A model generated the notes under the pieces. It ran no database searches and was not told the origin of the DNA. It worked only from the letters and a program-made list of their open reading frames with translations. From NCBI GenBank assembly GCA_949788275.1, contig OX460916.1, positions 1,674,001 through 1,738,000 on the forward strand: DNA of 64,000 nt. Reading direction: 5' to 3'. A program made the position numbers and the translations under genes. The DNA comes from Weeksellaceae bacterium (GTDB lineage Bacteria > Bacteroidota > Bacteroidia > Flavobacteriales > Weeksellaceae). Positions 10,081-53,827 of the stretch are shown piece by piece. Position 1 is the first letter of the stretch; each line of letters opens with the position of its first letter.

Positions 10081-10237
10081 ACAAGGCCTTTGAAGTGTTC
10101 ACGAGTGAACACTTCAAAGGCCTTGTTCTGCGGCAGGGATAGCAGCGGCATCCTTTGCTGCCTCCTGAGTTTTAATTCAACCCGAGAGGTTGATGCAGCA
10201 AAGATATAGCGGATAGCCCGGCGCGTAGCGGCCGCCC
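10081..10237 (-). repeat. Dispersed hairpin repeat, copy 2
   Basis: This is the same unit as copy 1 in reverse orientation. It starts GGGCGGCCGC at 10237, carries the stem TTTGCTGC/GCAGCAAA and the GGATGCCGCTGCTATCCCTG block, and ends in a perfect 21-bp hairpin (10081-10101 with 10106-10126). Its 5' end is 23 bases after the stop codon of the Crp-like gene, in the same orientation as that gene. The stem shares the CAAGG base and GTGTTCA apex with copy 1 but differs in the middle, with both strands changed together. Confidence 0.85.
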
Positions 10238-30376: not shown

Positions 30377-30533
30377 GGGCGGCCGCTTCGCGCCGGGCTA
30401 TTCGCTCTATCTTTGCTGCAAGAACATCTCGGGTTTATGGAAACCCCAGGTAGCAGCAAAGGATGCCGCTGCTATCCCTGCCGCAGCGCCAAGGTGTTAA
30501 GGTGTTCGATGACGAACACCTTAACACCTTGGC
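30377..30533 (+). repeat. Dispersed hairpin repeat, copy 3
   Basis: This unit begins GGGCGGCCGCTTCGCGCCGG and carries CTTTGCTGC/GCAGCAAAG, an internal hairpin GGGTTT-ATGG-AAACCC and the block GGATGCCGCTGCTATCCCTG. It ends in a perfect 21-bp hairpin (30488-30508 with 30513-30533, loop ATGA). The hairpin shares CCAAGG at the base and GTGTTC near the apex with copy 1. It follows glyS in the same orientation, beyond the glyS terminator. Confidence 0.85.
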
Positions 30534-32315: not shown

Positions 32316-32346
32316 AAAAACCGATATGGCTTACATATCGGTTTTT
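32316..32346. terminator. Bidirectional terminator overlapping the WYL gene stop
   Basis: AAAAACCGATATG, loop GCTTA, CATATCGGTTTTT. It serves the PF04020 gene on the plus strand and the WYL gene on the minus strand, whose stop codon lies inside the stem-loop. Confidence 0.88.
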
Positions 32347-33365
32347 TTGGGTTGTATCATATACTGATCTGCAGCAGCGCTTAATCGTTTTTGAATTCGC
32401 TTCCGTAAAGGTCTAGGTGCTAAAACCTCCAACTCTTCACCAAAACCTATAAGCTCACGCTCCAATTCGAAATTAAGAATAACGTCAATGGAAAATAGAG
32501 CACTAAGCTCCGTTTCCTCAATCAGTTTTTGCGTGGCATGCAAAGGCTTAGTAACTATATAAGGTGTTAGTTTTTTTGTCACCTTAAAAACAACTTTTTG
32601 CTCTCGTTCAGTAAGGGATTTGGTTACACCAATAGCATTGTCGAAGTAATGTTCGAAATCAATCGCTGGCATATCTACAAAATCTTCATTGGCCAATTCA
32701 TAAAAATCCACCATACGATCTAAAGCCAATGTATAAAGCGTTTTCGACTTTTGTGGTTTGACCAATAAAAACCAACGATTACGGTATTCCTTTAGTAAAT
32801 AAGGATAATAGATGGTTTGTCTTGGTTCGTTTTGACGGAACGACTGGTAATTGATTAAAAGAGGCTGCTTATTGGCTACAGCTGTGTAAAGGCGATTTAA
32901 ATGCGCTAACCCCTTGAGTAAAGGATTTTCCTCGAACTGAATATAGTTACGGGTTTTCTCTTTGGTCTTCGCTAAATTATTTTCGAGGCGAGTAATCACG
33001 CCATTCAATTCATCGAAATACTGAAAACCATTCACTTGCTTTAAAAAACCAATGACTTCTTTCATTTTCTCCATATCTGCCGATGAAACAGGTGAATTTT
33101 GGATGCTGTAATTTTTATCGGCGTAGCTATAATACTTTCTATCAGTAACAATAATGGGTGCATGGTACCCCAATTTATCACTTCGCATTAACTGAATATC
33201 CCCTTGAATCGTTCGCTTCGATATACCCGATGTTATTCCTTCATAGTCGTAAAGCGCCTCTGATACCGCCTCCATTAAATCGTCCAACGCCCATTTGCGG
33301 TAATGATTTTGGAGGCATTTATCAATGGTTTGATACCTTAATAAGGCTATTTTGTTTGTGGCCAT
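32331..33365 (-). CDS. WYL-domain transcription regulator
   Basis: This 344-residue protein has an N-terminal winged-helix region (residues 1-70, with RYQTIDKCLQ and GISKRTIQGDIQLMR), a WYL ligand domain in the middle (QPLLINYQSFRQ, YYPYLLKEYRNRWFLL, LDRMVDFYEL) and the WCX C-terminal extension ending LEVLAPRPLRKRIQKRL. WYL regulators sense nucleic-acid fragments, nucleotides or related ligands and often control stress or defence genes. It is divergent from the noncoding RNA and SPFH-rtcB unit across about 150 bases holding repeated TACGCAAATACAT sites, so it is a likely controller of that unit. Confidence 0.9.
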   Translation of the reverse strand: MATNKIALLRYQTIDKCLQNHYRKWALDDLMEAVSEALYDYEGITSGISKRTIQGDIQLMRSDKLGYHAPIIVTDRKYYSYADKNYSIQNSPVSSADMEKMKEVIGFLKQVNGFQYFDELNGVITRLENNLAKTKEKTRNYIQFEENPLLKGLAHLNRLYTAVANKQPLLINYQSFRQNEPRQTIYYPYLLKEYRNRWFLLVKPQKSKTLYTLALDRMVDFYELANEDFVDMPAIDFEHYFDNAIGVTKSLTEREQKVVFKVTKKLTPYIVTKPLHATQKLIEETELSALFSIDVILNFELERELIGFGEELEVLAPRPLRKRIQKRLSAAADQYMIQPKKTDM

Positions 33366-33517: not shown

Positions 33518-33535
33518 TACGCAAATACATTGCGC
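33518..33535. promoter_or_regulatory. Second TACGCAAATACAT site
   Basis: This 13-bp sequence is an exact repeat of 33429-33441. Here it is followed by TGCGC, making a looser inverted repeat (TACGCAA, then TTGCGC). It precedes the structured noncoding region, so the same regulator could act on both divergent units. Confidence 0.5.
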
Positions 33536-33654
33536 ACTACTACCCCAACTTTGTCGTAGAAAATAAGTCGAAAGCTTTCGTTTGTGCTTCTGTATAGCAC
33601 GACAGTAGAAAATGTTTCATCTCTTCTATACTGGCTCTCGCTTTTTTCGATAAA

Positions 33655-33724
33655 TGAATGTGTTGGTGGTTCGAGTCCACCCGTCAAAGTTTCTTTGACG
33701 TATATCAATTGGTAGATAAATTCA
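33655..33724 (+). ncRNA. Circularly permuted tRNA-like module (YrlA-like)
   Basis: Read in order, the bases give: anticodon-stem 3' strand TGAAT, a 5-base variable loop, T-stem GGTGG, T-loop TTCGAGT, CCACC, acceptor 3' strand CGTCAAA, a short loop GTTTC, acceptor 5' strand TTTGACG, TA (positions 8-9), D-stem TATC, D-loop AATTGGTA, GATA, A26 and anticodon-stem 5' strand ATTCA. All four helices are perfect and have standard lengths (5, 7, 4, 5), and the conserved U8, A14, G18-G19, A21 and U54-U55-C56-A58 equivalents are present. The acceptor end is closed and no CCA end exists. This matches the known plan of YrlA Y RNAs, tRNA mimics linked to rtcBA in Salmonella. It cannot be a normal tRNA. Confidence 0.75.
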
Positions 33725-33936
33725 ACTTGGGCTAACGCCACACTCGCCATCGGTTCGATGGCCCCTAGCCTTCGGGCATCATGTAACAAGAAAGTCGAGC
33801 TGCTTTCAGATGAACTGATCTACGGATTAAGCGAGTCATTTGTAGAACGACCTGAATACGACTCCTTTTTGGATGATTGAACAAAGAAAACACGATGGTA
33901 CAAAACGGAACATTGGTGTAATCGGCCACTCAAAAC

Positions 33937-34024: not shown

Positions 34025-35119
34025 ATGAAAAAATTAACAGTACAACCAAACGAAATAGCCATCAATCGCCAAGATAAAACCATTAAAAAAATCTATACAG
34101 CCGGAACCTACTGGATCTTTCCTTGGGCAACGGTAGAAGTTTTTGATATCAATTTACCAATTGAAGAGTCTCTGCATGGGTTGTTTCAAAACAATCAACA
34201 ACTTCAGTCTATGGTCGATTATGTTGAGGCAGCCCATAACGAAGCAATCTTGGTCTTCGTAAATAAGCAGTTTAAAACAGCATATCAAAATAGCAATGCG
34301 ATGTTTTGGAAAGAAACCACCCAACTGAAGTGGGAAAAACACACCTTGAGTTCAACTGAAATTGTAAAGAACTTACAGCCCCAACAATTGGAGTGTTTAC
34401 GACAAATTGGAGCGATAAGAAACTTTTGTGTACCCGCTTTTTTTGAAGGCCTATTATTTGTTAACGAACAATTCATAGACGTTTTAAAACCAGGCGACTA
34501 TGCTTTTTACAAAAATGAGACAGCTATTCACGTGGTCATTCGTGAAATACGAACACAAACAATGGAGATACTTGGGCAAGAAATTTTAACCAAAGACAAA
34601 GCACAACTGCGCATCAATTGTATGCTGCATTACCAATTGACCAATTTTAGAAAAGCTTATGAATCGAACCGAGATTTTGAAAAAAATTTGTACCAGACCA
34701 TTCAATTGGGGTTACGTGAATTTATTGGTGGATTAAGCTTTGATGAATTAATGGCAGATAAGAATTCGGTTTCTTCTTTCTTAATCGATCAATACCGGAC
34801 ATCCTTTCAAGCAATCGGTATTGATATCAAAGAAGCAGGCATCAAAGACATCATCTTACCGGGTGATATTCGCGAAATTATGAACAAAGTCTTAATTGCC
34901 GAAAAAAACGCGCAAGCCAATTCCATTATGCGTCGTGAAGAAACGGCTTCTACCCGAAGCTTGCTTAACACAGCCAAATTGATGGAAGAAAACGAGTTAT
35001 TATGGAAACTAAAGGAAATGGAATACATTGAAAAAGTCGCTGAAAAAGTGAACTCAATTTCTATTTCGGGTGGTGGAAATGTACTAAATGAATTGAAAAC
35101 CTTATTTATAAAACCTTAA
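34025..35119 (+). CDS. SPFH/band-7 (slipin-like) protein without membrane anchor
   Basis: This 364-residue protein has a C-terminal SPFH/band-7 domain (about 150-300: ILTKDKAQLRINCMLHYQL, NLYQTIQLGLREFIGG, IGIDIKEAGIKDIILPGDIR) and a helical tail (AEKNAQANSIMRREETASTR onward). Residues 1-150 hold what looks like a duplicated small module (AGTYWIFPW near 27, PGDYAFYKN near 158). Unlike stomatins and slipins it has no N-terminal hydrophobic hairpin, so it may be cytosolic. It precedes rtcB by one base, so they are surely co-transcribed. SPFH proteins form large ring assemblies; a scaffold role in RNA repair is an inference from this pairing, which is recurrent in bacterial RNA-repair operons. 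Confidence 0.82.
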   Translation: MKKLTVQPNEIAINRQDKTIKKIYTAGTYWIFPWATVEVFDINLPIEESLHGLFQNNQQLQSMVDYVEAAHNEAILVFVNKQFKTAYQNSNAMFWKETTQLKWEKHTLSSTEIVKNLQPQQLECLRQIGAIRNFCVPAFFEGLLFVNEQFIDVLKPGDYAFYKNETAIHVVIREIRTQTMEILGQEILTKDKAQLRINCMLHYQLTNFRKAYESNRDFEKNLYQTIQLGLREFIGGLSFDELMADKNSVSSFLIDQYRTSFQAIGIDIKEAGIKDIILPGDIREIMNKVLIAEKNAQANSIMRREETASTRSLLNTAKLMEENELLWKLKEMEYIEKVAEKVNSISISGGGNVLNELKTLFIKP

Positions 35120-35120
35120 A

Positions 35121-36560
35121 ATGAAAGCAATAACACAACATAAACAACCCCTAAACGGTAATGATTTAATCGCATTAGGTTATCCTGAAAATGAAATTCT
35201 AGGGGTTGCCTTAAAAATAAATCGGAAAAGAACAGGGTTAACCAAAGCTGAAATGCTCGCTCATTATGCAGCCGTATTCGCCCATCCAGAAAATTTTATA
35301 ACACATCCTCTATTTAAATCCTTAGCCAAAGGCTTTATAGACGGTATTCATTTACCCAAAGAAAACACCATTCCATTAAGAGAAGAGGTCATCCCCTACG
35401 CCCTCTATGGCGAAAAACAGATTGAAGACGGCGCTAGAAAACAAATGAATATAGCAATGCAATTACCCATAACGGTGGCTGGTGCTTTAATGCCAGATGC
35501 TCACCAAGGATATGGTCTACCGATTGGTGGGGTGTTAGCCACAAAAAATGCGGTTATTCCTTATGGGGTTGGTGTGGATATCGGGTGCCGAATGGCGATG
35601 TCTATTTTCGATTTACCCGCTTCACATTACTTTAGCCATCACGATCAATTAAAGGAGATCATTCTTGGAAACACCAAATTTGGTGCTGGCCATGGTTTTC
35701 ATGGAAAATACAAAGCAGAACACGCCGTATTAGACGATGCTAAATTCGAAACCAATCCCTTTATTGCAAATCTTAAAGACAAGGCTTGGTCTCAATTAGG
35801 GTCTTCAGGCGGAGGGAATCATTTCGTTGAATTTGGAATCCTCGATTTTAAAGAAACCGATGCGGAATTAAACATTGAGAAAGGTCAATATCTAGCACTG
35901 TTAACCCATTCAGGATCTAGAGGATTTGGAGCAACCATTGCAGGGCATTATACCCATCTCGCTAAAAGTATGTGCCCTTTACCCTACCAAGCTAAAAATT
36001 TAGCCTACTTGGATTTAGATACCCAGGAAGGTCAGGATTATTGGTTAGCGATGACGTTAGCGGGAGATTATGCCTCAGCCTGTCATGCCGTAATTCATCA
36101 GAAGATTACCACTGCACTAGGTGCTGAAGTCATGGCAACCATTGAAAACCATCATAATTTTGCCTGGAAAGAAATGTTGAATGGAGAAGAGGTAATTGTT
36201 CACCGAAAAGGAGCGACTCCTGCCGCTAAAGGGGTTATGGGAATAATTCCTGGCTCGATGACCGCCCCTGGTTTCTTGGTTCGCGGAAAAGGAGAAGCCA
36301 ATGCGATTAATTCGGCCTCTCACGGTGCAGGAAGGCAAATGAGTAGAACCCAAGCTATAAAATCGCTCGATCAAAAAGCGATCACCAACTACTTAAATGA
36401 CGTTGGAATTACCTTAATGGGTGCAGGAAAAGATGAAGCTCCGATGGCTTATAAAGATATTCACGAGGTGATGGCTGCACAAACCGATTTAGTGAATGTG
36501 GTAGCTACGTTTACACCCAAAATGGTGCGTATGGCCGATGATGGAAGTAAAGAAGATTAA
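35121..36560 (+). CDS. rtcB: RNA-splicing ligase RtcB
   Basis: This 479-residue enzyme joins RNA 2',3'-cyclic phosphate (or 3'-phosphate) ends to 5'-OH ends using GTP and Mn(II). Its motifs are complete: MPDAHQGYGLPIGGV, GVDIGCRMAM (Cys156, metal ligand), SSGGGNHFVEFG, THSGSRGFG, ENHHNFAW and ASHGAGRQMSR (His401, guanylylated residue). Length is that of the long archaeal-like form (about 480) rather than E. coli RtcB (408). It is second in the SPFH-rtcB operon; no rtcA, archease or Ro60 gene is nearby. Its substrate here may be cleaved tRNA or the tRNA-like RNA upstream. Confidence 0.96.
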   Translation: MKAITQHKQPLNGNDLIALGYPENEILGVALKINRKRTGLTKAEMLAHYAAVFAHPENFITHPLFKSLAKGFIDGIHLPKENTIPLREEVIPYALYGEKQIEDGARKQMNIAMQLPITVAGALMPDAHQGYGLPIGGVLATKNAVIPYGVGVDIGCRMAMSIFDLPASHYFSHHDQLKEIILGNTKFGAGHGFHGKYKAEHAVLDDAKFETNPFIANLKDKAWSQLGSSGGGNHFVEFGILDFKETDAELNIEKGQYLALLTHSGSRGFGATIAGHYTHLAKSMCPLPYQAKNLAYLDLDTQEGQDYWLAMTLAGDYASACHAVIHQKITTALGAEVMATIENHHNFAWKEMLNGEEVIVHRKGATPAAKGVMGIIPGSMTAPGFLVRGKGEANAINSASHGAGRQMSRTQAIKSLDQKAITNYLNDVGITLMGAGKDEAPMAYKDIHEVMAAQTDLVNVVATFTPKMVRMADDGSKED

Positions 36561-48065: not shown

Positions 48066-48195
48066 CCCGTTTTCAACGTGATCTTTCGCGCCAACGATAG
48101 AAGTGGAAATCCTTTTCTGCATCTACTATTTTCAGTTGAAATAGTAGATGCAGAAAAGATTGGGAACGGATAGCGTGGCCCGTAGGGAGGCGCCC
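48066..48195 (-). repeat. Diverged hairpin repeat, copy 4
   Basis: On the minus strand it begins GGGCGCCTCCCTACGGGCC and contains GCTATCCG, then ATCTTTTCTGCA opening a perfect 20-bp stem (48112-48131 with 48139-48158, 7-base loop) closed by AAAAGGAT, then a CTTCTATCG end. The frame ATCTTT-stem-AAAGGAT is the same as in copies 1-3, but the stem sequence is unrelated and the tail hairpin is lacking. Its 5' end lies 26 bases after the stop of the truncated hemoglobin gene, in the same orientation. Confidence 0.7.
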
Positions 48196-53500: not shown

Positions 53501-53501
53501 G

Positions 53502-53572
53502 TAGACCTACAGGGATTCGAACCCCGACAGGCGGCACCAAAAACCGATGTGCTACCGTTACACCATAGGTCT
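53502..53572 (-). tRNA. tRNA-Gln (UUG), copy 1
   Basis: The cloverleaf is AGACCTA acceptor, a GTGT/GCAC D-stem with AACGGTA loop, loop TTTTGGT with anticodon UUG, and T-arm CGGGG-TTCGAAT-CCCTG, 71 bases with A as discriminator and no encoded CCA. The anticodon stem has a U-C mismatch at 27-43 and a U-G at 31-39. It is identical to copies 2 and 3. Confidence 0.93.
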
Positions 53573-53603
53573 ATTTAAATAATAAGTTGAATGTGAAATT
53601 AAA

Positions 53604-53629
53604 AAAACCTCAACCTGAATTGAGGTTTT
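53604..53629 (-). terminator. Hairpin between tRNA-Gln copies 1 and 2
   Basis: AAAACCTCAA and TTGAGGTTTT pair perfectly around CCTGAA, and the minus strand runs into T. It looks like a terminator between two tRNA genes, so the copies may be separate units or partly attenuated. Confidence 0.7.
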
Positions 53630-53639
53630 AAAAATTTTG

Positions 53640-53710
53640 TAGACCTACAGGGATTCGAACCCCGACAGGCGGCACCAAAAACCGATGTGCTACCGTTACA
53701 CCATAGGTCT
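53640..53710 (-). tRNA. tRNA-Gln (UUG), copy 2
   Basis: All 71 bases are identical to copy 1. It is separated from copy 1 by 67 bases with a hairpin and from copy 3 by 46 bases. Confidence 0.93.
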
Positions 53711-53756
53711 ATTCAACTTTTTTGCAATAATAAGACGTTTTTAAGAAAAAAACTTG

Positions 53757-53827
53757 TAGACCTACAGGGATTCGAACCCCGACAGGCGGCACCAAAAACC
53801 GATGTGCTACCGTTACACCATAGGTCT
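53757..53827 (-). tRNA. tRNA-Gln (UUG), copy 3
   Basis: All 71 bases are identical to the other two copies. As the first in the minus-strand direction, it is nearest the promoter, which I cannot place with confidence in 53828-53957. Confidence 0.93.

Follow-up and report, generated by a model that had tools for sequence, protein, structure and literature searches.

A candidate tRNA-mimic RNA directly upstream of slipin in bacterial RNA-repair operons

What does a complete tRNA body, encoded in circularly permuted order, do directly in front of genes for RNA repair? Such a site occurs in a Weeksellaceae bacterium (contig OX460916.1 of assembly GCA_949788275.1), within a stretch of 64,000 nucleotides which we call the window. 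The site lies between a divergently transcribed regulator gene and a gene pair coding for a slipin and an RNA ligase, and the surrounding features are as follows.

32331..33365, minus strand: divergent WYL/WCX transcription regulator (Pfam WYL 2.1e-10, WCX 8.9e-10)
33519..33553, plus strand: operator-like palindrome ACGCA..TGCGCA, followed by a TTTG element (pattern search; the repeat was also detected)
33583..33632, plus strand: 5' domain with a P2 hairpin, whose stem closes a UUCUGUAUA-type loop, and a P3 stem with a 2-nt bulge (model R2, covariation)
33655..33724, plus strand: permuted tRNA-like unit, a complete tRNA body (sequence reading, covariation, YrlA match, geometric search)
33746..33762, plus strand: hairpin GCCATC-GGTTC-GATGGC 3' of the unit, by its sequence not anticodon-like
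34025..35119, plus strand: slipin, an SPFH/Band-7 protein (Pfam Band_7 1.3e-18; PDB profile match to stomatins)
35121..36560, plus strand: RtcB RNA ligase (Pfam RtcB 4.1e-83)

The slipin consists of a stomatin-like core (approximately 135-340) and an additional N-terminal part, and gave no match in a phage collection at E 1e-10. Elsewhere in the window, four Flavo-1 RNAs (RF01705) score above gathering (552-651, 10128-10227, 30387-30486 and 48085-48184), and three tandem tRNA-Gln(TTG) genes are present on the minus strand at 53501-53827.

The unit is arranged in the 5' to 3' order V-loop, T-arm, closed acceptor hairpin, U8/A9 and D-arm, and its anticodon stem is open at the ends.

33655-33659 (tRNA positions 39-43) with 33720-33724 (27-31): anticodon stem, 5 bp
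33660-33664: V-loop, 5 nt
33665-33681: T-arm, 5 bp, loop TTCGAGT
33682-33688 with 33694-33700: acceptor hairpin, 7 bp, loop GTTTC at 33689-33693
33701-33702: U8 and A9
33703-33718: D-arm, 4 bp
33719: position 26

With every element located and the top score of a geometric search over both strands of the window (21.85 among 25 units; runner-up 16.8), the circularly permuted, complete tRNA body described in an earlier sequence-only reading was confirmed. The best score obtained in 30 first-order Markov windows was 19.45, which is below that of the unit. We built a covariance model of the unit (R1), trained solely on the genus of the window, which matched exactly 33655-33724 with 73 bits, the window locus being one of its ten training rows. 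Independently of this training, the Rfam model for YrlA (RF02553) matched positions 33652-33728 with 30.1 bits (E 1.8e-4 for 681 bases), below its gathering cut-off of 69, so that the YrlA-type plan recognised in that reading holds at a sub-threshold score. No tRNA was called at 33655-33724 by ARAGORN or the Rfam tRNA model, and minimum-energy folding of the site was unremarkable (z -1.40 for 121 nt and z -1.09 for 431 nt); the case for the unit is therefore built on covariation and not on folding energy. The window species contains a single unit without an anticodon-like arm, and the hairpin at 33746-33762 occupies the place taken in many other species by a second unit or such an arm.

Within the genus, the units vary in sequence and retain the fold. 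In an alignment of 10 of the 13 units (omitting the first units of L004 and L008, plus L009), 97.9% of the cells were paired, double changes occurred in 11 of 19 pairs, and covariation amounted to 0.407 compared to 0.123 after shuffling. A second alignment was prepared from 36 R1 matches of a class-wide genome sample, leaving out the window; it was fitted to R1 and is hence biased towards the structure of that model, and one of its matches lies far from slipin (L155, 3951-4025). It yielded 95.7% paired cells, a covariation of 0.809 versus 0.256 shuffled and double changes in 16 of 19 pairs; as many double-changed pairs arose in 20 of 500 shuffles, whereas no shuffle attained the remaining values. 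Compensatory changes in the four helices, named in the sequence-only reading as the check on its fold, are present in both alignments, by which all four helices of the permuted unit covary across Bacteroidota. The register of the fold was analysed in 80 named slipin loci, the best 80 of 476 obtained by a slipin profile search, which by title belong nearly all to Bacteroidota (Flavobacterium, Myroides, Chryseobacterium, Pedobacter, Sphingobacterium, Larkinella, Runella, Chitinophagaceae and others). Among the 41 loci that could be anchored, 72 of 82 acceptor stems pair at 5/5 in the permuted register, whereas the mean acceptor pairing in the canonical register was 2.63 of 5 and equalled the random value of 2.70. 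Because the permuted stems pair and the canonical acceptor strands do so no better than random ones, the permuted register is the right one, and an array of tRNAs in canonical register was rejected.

Real tRNA genes are nevertheless common in the vicinity. ARAGORN called 143 of them upstream of slipin in 32 of the 80 loci (within L066-L138), at distances of 0.8-7 kb and on the same strand, and 50 of 111 array spacers are 12 nt or shorter. The loop of the array tRNA-Asp reads CTGTCTC or TTGTCTC (U37) in 14 of 15 cases versus CTGTCAC in the genome of the window, the only genome used for this comparison; the loops of array Phe and Pro tRNAs also vary. A tight junction of two tRNAs nearly has the geometry of the permuted unit, which suggests a possible origin of permuted tRNA mimics where two tRNAs abut in a dense array. 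We also considered that the unit is a functionless remnant of a decayed array, in which a two-tRNA junction just resembles a permuted unit. The frequency and tight spacing of the upstream tRNA genes would fit this explanation, as would the R1 matches produced by tandem tRNAs in the genus, but the acceptor strands pair inside the unit and not across tRNAs, and the strong covariation contradicts decay. We regard a remnant as very unlikely; array junctions may be the origin of the unit, but its structure appears to be kept by selection.

The sequence-only reading can be refined in that the RNA extends beyond the tRNA body, which forms one of its modules: a 5' domain precedes this body, a second unit often follows, and an anticodon-like arm is present in many other species. 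The 5' domain starts approximately 70-115 nt before the first unit; its P2 hairpin contains a U-G closing pair around a loop like UUCUGUAUA, and the bulge of P3 starts with U. In a pattern search, both P2 and P3 were found in 69 of the 80 loci, though the second stem is doubtful in some, and a geometric finder applied without cut-off placed two tandem units in 69 of 80 loci. From the 69 loci passing the pattern search, we chose 35 rows with perfect P3 and at least 3 of 4 pairs in P2, so that the covariation of P3 is overstated in the resulting values of 92.7% paired cells and a covariation of 0.620 versus 0.181 shuffled; the count of double-changed pairs was reached by 24 of 500 shuffles. A model of the 5' domain derived from these rows (R2), which include one row of the same genus and leave the window locus outside, recognised the window copy at 33583-33632 with 43.4 bits (E 6.7e-9 in the genome). 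Searching the class sample under Infernal's stricter filters and an E cut-off of 0.001, we obtained R2 matches in 22 of 396 genomes. Eighteen of these belong to the 30 genomes that contain slipin at a cut-off of E 1e-40 (1.7 expected by chance), and all 18 matches in slipin genomes lie 0.4-0.7 kb upstream of the slipin gene on the same strand. Three of the four R2 genomes outside the slipin set gave weak matches (G241, G318 and G381), without a slipin match; at two weak R2 loci without slipin (L187 and L188), no R1 unit was detected and none of ten neighbouring proteins was matched.

The connection with slipin was then analysed in the genus, in the named loci and in the class sample. A DNA match to the region was obtained in 11 of 14 genomes of the genus, including that of the window, and at the ten other loci (L002-L011) a WYL gene adjoins the RNA in all ten and slipin lies within the stretch in eight. 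Slipin is encoded in 13 of the 14 genomes, 12 of which gave an R1 match of at least 68 bits and the thirteenth (L063) a weak one of 24 bits. The genus genome without slipin (G001) showed no DNA match to the region and eight R1 matches, of which the four listed ones are 116 nt long, a length typical of tandem tRNAs. Among the 80 named loci, an R1 match is present upstream of slipin in 78 (L113 and L124 were missed), and all 169 R1 matches in these loci are on the sense strand of slipin, some of those farther upstream being tRNA-array junctions. In the class sample, R1 matched upstream of slipin in 29 of 30 loci, including that of the window, and the thirtieth (L162) carries the 5' domain, which is present in 28 of these 30 loci. 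R1 alone is unspecific, as matches were found in 194 of 197 genomes of the family, many of them from tandem tRNAs or Ro60-linked units; matches of about 99-117 nt in this search were set aside as tandem tRNAs, and two of those in the genome of the window coincide with tRNAs. The geometric finder, again applied without a score cut-off, detected a unit upstream of slipin in all 80 loci, on the reverse strand in 14 and downstream in 17.

In the stretches obtained for the 80 loci, the neighbouring genes code for RtcB in 48 cases, WYL proteins in 40, RlaP in 18-19 and TROVE in one. No rtcB gene was present inside the stretch at 32 loci, and at L066 and L086 RtcB is encoded kilobases away and the RNA is still at slipin. 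The link to an SPFH-rtcB operon proposed in the sequence-only reading stands, but slipin rather than rtcB is the more constant partner of the RNA. One exception (L185 in G465) has the order WYL, a strong copy of the RNA, a gene for 214 amino acids and RtcB, without slipin; by eye, a similar palindrome precedes both the RNA and the 214-aa gene at this locus. The window itself shows all features by which we define the slipin-linked RNA, namely the P2 and P3 elements of the 5' domain, at least one permuted unit and, 0.3-0.8 kb further downstream, a slipin gene in the same orientation.

Because of the shared permuted plan, the RNA may be taken for a classical YrlA-type Y RNA whose partner Ro60 is encoded elsewhere or was recently lost. 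The gene for Ro60 (Rsr) is normally adjacent to YrlA. The Rfam match reported above would agree with this assignment, and of the 197 family genomes 43 indeed contain TROVE genes, several of which have Y-RNA-like units close by. Permuted units of this kind were seen at L025, L026, L028, L029, L031-L035, L037, L039, L040 and L048-L051, several near TROVE in the same family. However, TROVE was absent from all 14 genomes of the genus in a search that gave matches in a control genome, and, among the 40 of 80 slipin genomes that were searched, from 36. The sequence-only observation that no Ro60 gene is in view thus extends to the whole genome of the window. The Ro60-linked Y RNAs of the family carry by eye an outer stem CAAGTGTCGT...TTACCTTG, and no outer stem like this was seen at the window RNA. 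At gathering score, the Rfam YrlA model called neither the eight Ro60-linked loci nor the 20 of 30 class-sample slipin loci that were searched with it. R2 was found in two of 12 Ro60-linked loci searched (L048 and L051), both adjoining slipin. Because the 5' domain occurs at Ro60 loci solely beside slipin, the slipin RNA is not the same RNA as the family's Ro60-linked Y RNAs, and the linkage to slipin holds class-wide. Membership in YrlA was rejected on the unmet gathering score and the missing Ro60, and we consider a classical YrlA improbable. In place of Ro60, the RNA has slipin as its genetic partner, to which RtcB, RlaP and a WYL regulator are often added.

Many relatives of the window RNA end in an arm that resembles an anticodon arm. 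A hairpin with a 7-nt loop follows the last unit in 61 of the 80 loci and contains U33 in 58 of them; at least two of these 61 loops (L066 and L076) are T-arms of a next unit, and some others are doubtful. Under a stricter 5-bp rule, we obtained 103 hairpins in 65 loci, 79 of them with U33, and the loops of 37 (in 35 of 80 loci) are identical to a real tRNA loop, which differs between species. Examples of such loops among L061-L140 are those of L130, L096 and L074. The set of real loops comprised 69 loops from 294 tRNA calls, duplicates included, and lacks some genuine loops. In comparison, only 19 of 1962 such hairpins elsewhere in the loci match real loops, and shuffling the 79 U33 loops 5000 times gave 2.3 matches on average and 8 at most. 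The number of distinct U33 loops matching exactly is 12 of 34; these counts come from related species, and the loci are not independent. On a single stem, CTACA/TGTAG, different species show loops identical to those of the Lys, Asp, Ile, Tyr and Glu tRNAs.

These arms bear on whether the locus is a circularly permuted tRNA gene, whose halves would be joined into a real tRNA by the neighbouring RtcB. Genes of this type occur in red algae and archaea, and the 3' half preceding the 5' half beside an RNA ligase as well as the hairpins with genuine anticodon loops in 35 loci would suit such a precursor. Yet the window unit has no anticodon loop, its acceptor loop of just 5 nt contains no CCA, and the RNA is present at the 32 loci without rtcB in the fetched stretch. 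A permuted tRNA precursor was rejected on the missing anticodon and the short acceptor loop, and is of all explanations the one to which we give the least credit.

Distant slipins were found in nine records from Citrobacter, E. coli, Burkholderia, Photobacterium and Subdoligranulum, of which six regions were inspected as single examples. In Citrobacter, the slipin gene adjoins a divergent gene for RtcR and a gene for a nucleotidyltransferase, and a sigma54-like TGGCACG..GC element, identified by eye, precedes a T-arm/acceptor element. R1 matched weakly in Citrobacter (16.9 bits) and Subdoligranulum (17.2 bits), and the leader of the latter looks permuted by eye. In Photobacterium (L242), two tRNA-like units in canonical order precede slipin, with scores of 54 and 46 bits for the Rfam tRNA model; because the units are in canonical order there, the R1 match of 37.6 bits represents their junction. 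One of these units appears by eye to have a 6-nt anticodon loop. Upstream of slipin in Burkholderia (L241 and L244), a tRNA-like fold in canonical order is seen by eye, in which a GAAA tetraloop replaces the anticodon loop.

The 33519-33553 element is the sole plus-strand match of the palindrome/TTTG pattern in the window. We searched 35 of the 40 WYL loci, those in which WYL was judged to adjoin the RNA, and found the pattern upstream of slipin in 14, compared to 10 matches in 927 kb of control sequence; the pattern had been shaped on sequences already inspected. It is missing in 21 of the 35 loci, including three of the same genus (L061-L063). The element is likely a promoter or operator of a joint RNA/slipin transcript, and the WYL regulator perhaps binds the palindrome. 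A consensus scan revealed no intrinsic terminator before slipin.

This arrangement leads to the main rival of the interpretation given below, a cis-acting leader, in which the tRNA-like part would be a sensor in the leader of the slipin-rtcB mRNA and regulate expression in cis. Binding of a tRNA-specific protein, or cleavage of the leader, would then alter transcription or translation. The position of the unit on the sense strand between the promoter-like element and slipin, the result of the terminator scan and the Citrobacter element following a sigma54-like sequence all fit a leader. On the other hand, the RNA is large, conserved and composed of several domains, often with two tRNA bodies, and no alternative terminator or structure sequestering the Shine-Dalgarno sequence was noticed, the terminator consensus scan being the sole search made for them. 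Its Ro60-linked relatives are stand-alone RNAs. We rate a leader function, by either route, as rather unlikely.

With somewhat better than even confidence, we interpret the site as one module, the tRNA mimic, of a conserved structured RNA whose gene immediately precedes slipin in bacterial RNA-repair operons. Judged from the comparative data, this RNA is probably a scaffold or bait for tRNA-recognising proteins, by a mechanism that we infer as follows. Expression of the RNA would accompany that of the operon when tRNAs are damaged. The 5' domain may bind the slipin oligomer, and the tRNA-shaped part may dock a tRNA-recognising protein, be it a repair enzyme (RtcB or RlaP, for example) or an anticodon nuclease that attacks the cell. 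The RNA would in this way act as a scaffold or bait at a repair site organised by slipin. The sequence-only reading had suggested a mimic of tRNA with some other partner than Ro60, or a sensor or substrate in RNA repair, and the RNA may act in either way. This assignment of the two parts follows the analogy with YrlA, which binds Rsr via its basal stem and PNPase via its tRNA-like domain (PMC8394870). TROVE proteins and a tRNA-like partner have likewise been described as forming an RNA-repair platform (PMC7824862, citing a 2020 review and one more work).

A more specific proposal, which we put forward tentatively, regards the RNA as a bait for anticodon nucleases or a gauge of their damage, equipped with anticodon loops that switch between species. 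It would display unchargeable tRNA bodies, joined in many species by an anticodon arm. The arm loops indeed switch between genuine loops of Lys, Asp, Phe, Tyr, Ser, Ile, Glu, Met, Leu and other tRNAs, and such switching, partly on one stem, is expected from an arms race with tRNA-cutting toxins. If the slipin-held bait is cut, this would either report the attack to the WYL- or RtcR-controlled operon or spare the real tRNAs, and RtcB or RlaP would reseal the cut bait. In Salmonella, the RtcR operon is regulated by damaged tRNAs, and it was suggested that YrlA might inhibit an anticodon nuclease competitively (PMC7790460). YrlA itself was reported to be uncleaved in the same study (PMC7790460), which disfavours a bait that acts through cleavage.

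No prior description of a slipin-linked tRNA-mimic RNA, and no explained role of slipin (SPFH) in RNA repair, was found in the literature searched. If our interpretation is correct, tRNA-mimicking Y-like RNAs are not bound to Ro60 but include a second class, widespread and associated with slipin. This class would supply defined molecules for studying the signals and targets of bacterial RtcB/RlaP operons, and may help to explain how broken tRNAs are detected or mended in cells. Whether such an RNA is a bait or sensor for tRNA-cutting toxins can be tested directly on the anticodon loops that change from species to species.

Four known systems invite comparison. Like the permuted tRNA genes of algae and archaea, the unit encodes the 3' part ahead of the 5' part, but the window unit lacks an anticodon, has a minimal acceptor loop and shows no sign of a mature tRNA. 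With the RtcR-controlled rtcBA operons, the slipin loci share the RtcB ligase and, in Citrobacter, the vicinity of RtcR and a nucleotidyltransferase, whereas a WYL protein is the usual neighbour in Bacteroidota (40 of 80 loci); the rtc locus of P. aeruginosa contains an SPFH gene (PMC13086221). The Anabaena regulator TrcR represses a tRNA (trn) operon and rtcB, and the slipin gene alr0740 is tabulated with these among the affected genes (PMC10272220). This combination of tRNA operon, rtcB and slipin recalls the tRNA genes upstream of slipin in 32 of our 80 loci, although the regulator is a different one and the excerpt of PMC10272220 available to us does not mention a tRNA-mimic RNA. From YrlA (RF02553), encoded in the Salmonella rsr-yrlBA-rtcBA locus, the slipin RNA differs by its own 5' domain in place of the outer stem of the Ro60-linked loci, by its frequent two tandem units and anticodon-like arm, and by slipin as the linked gene; the window genome contains no Ro60/TROVE gene, and the window score is below Rfam gathering. 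Both RNAs have in common the permuted module with a closed acceptor and an open anticodon stem, and their setting in RNA-repair operons.
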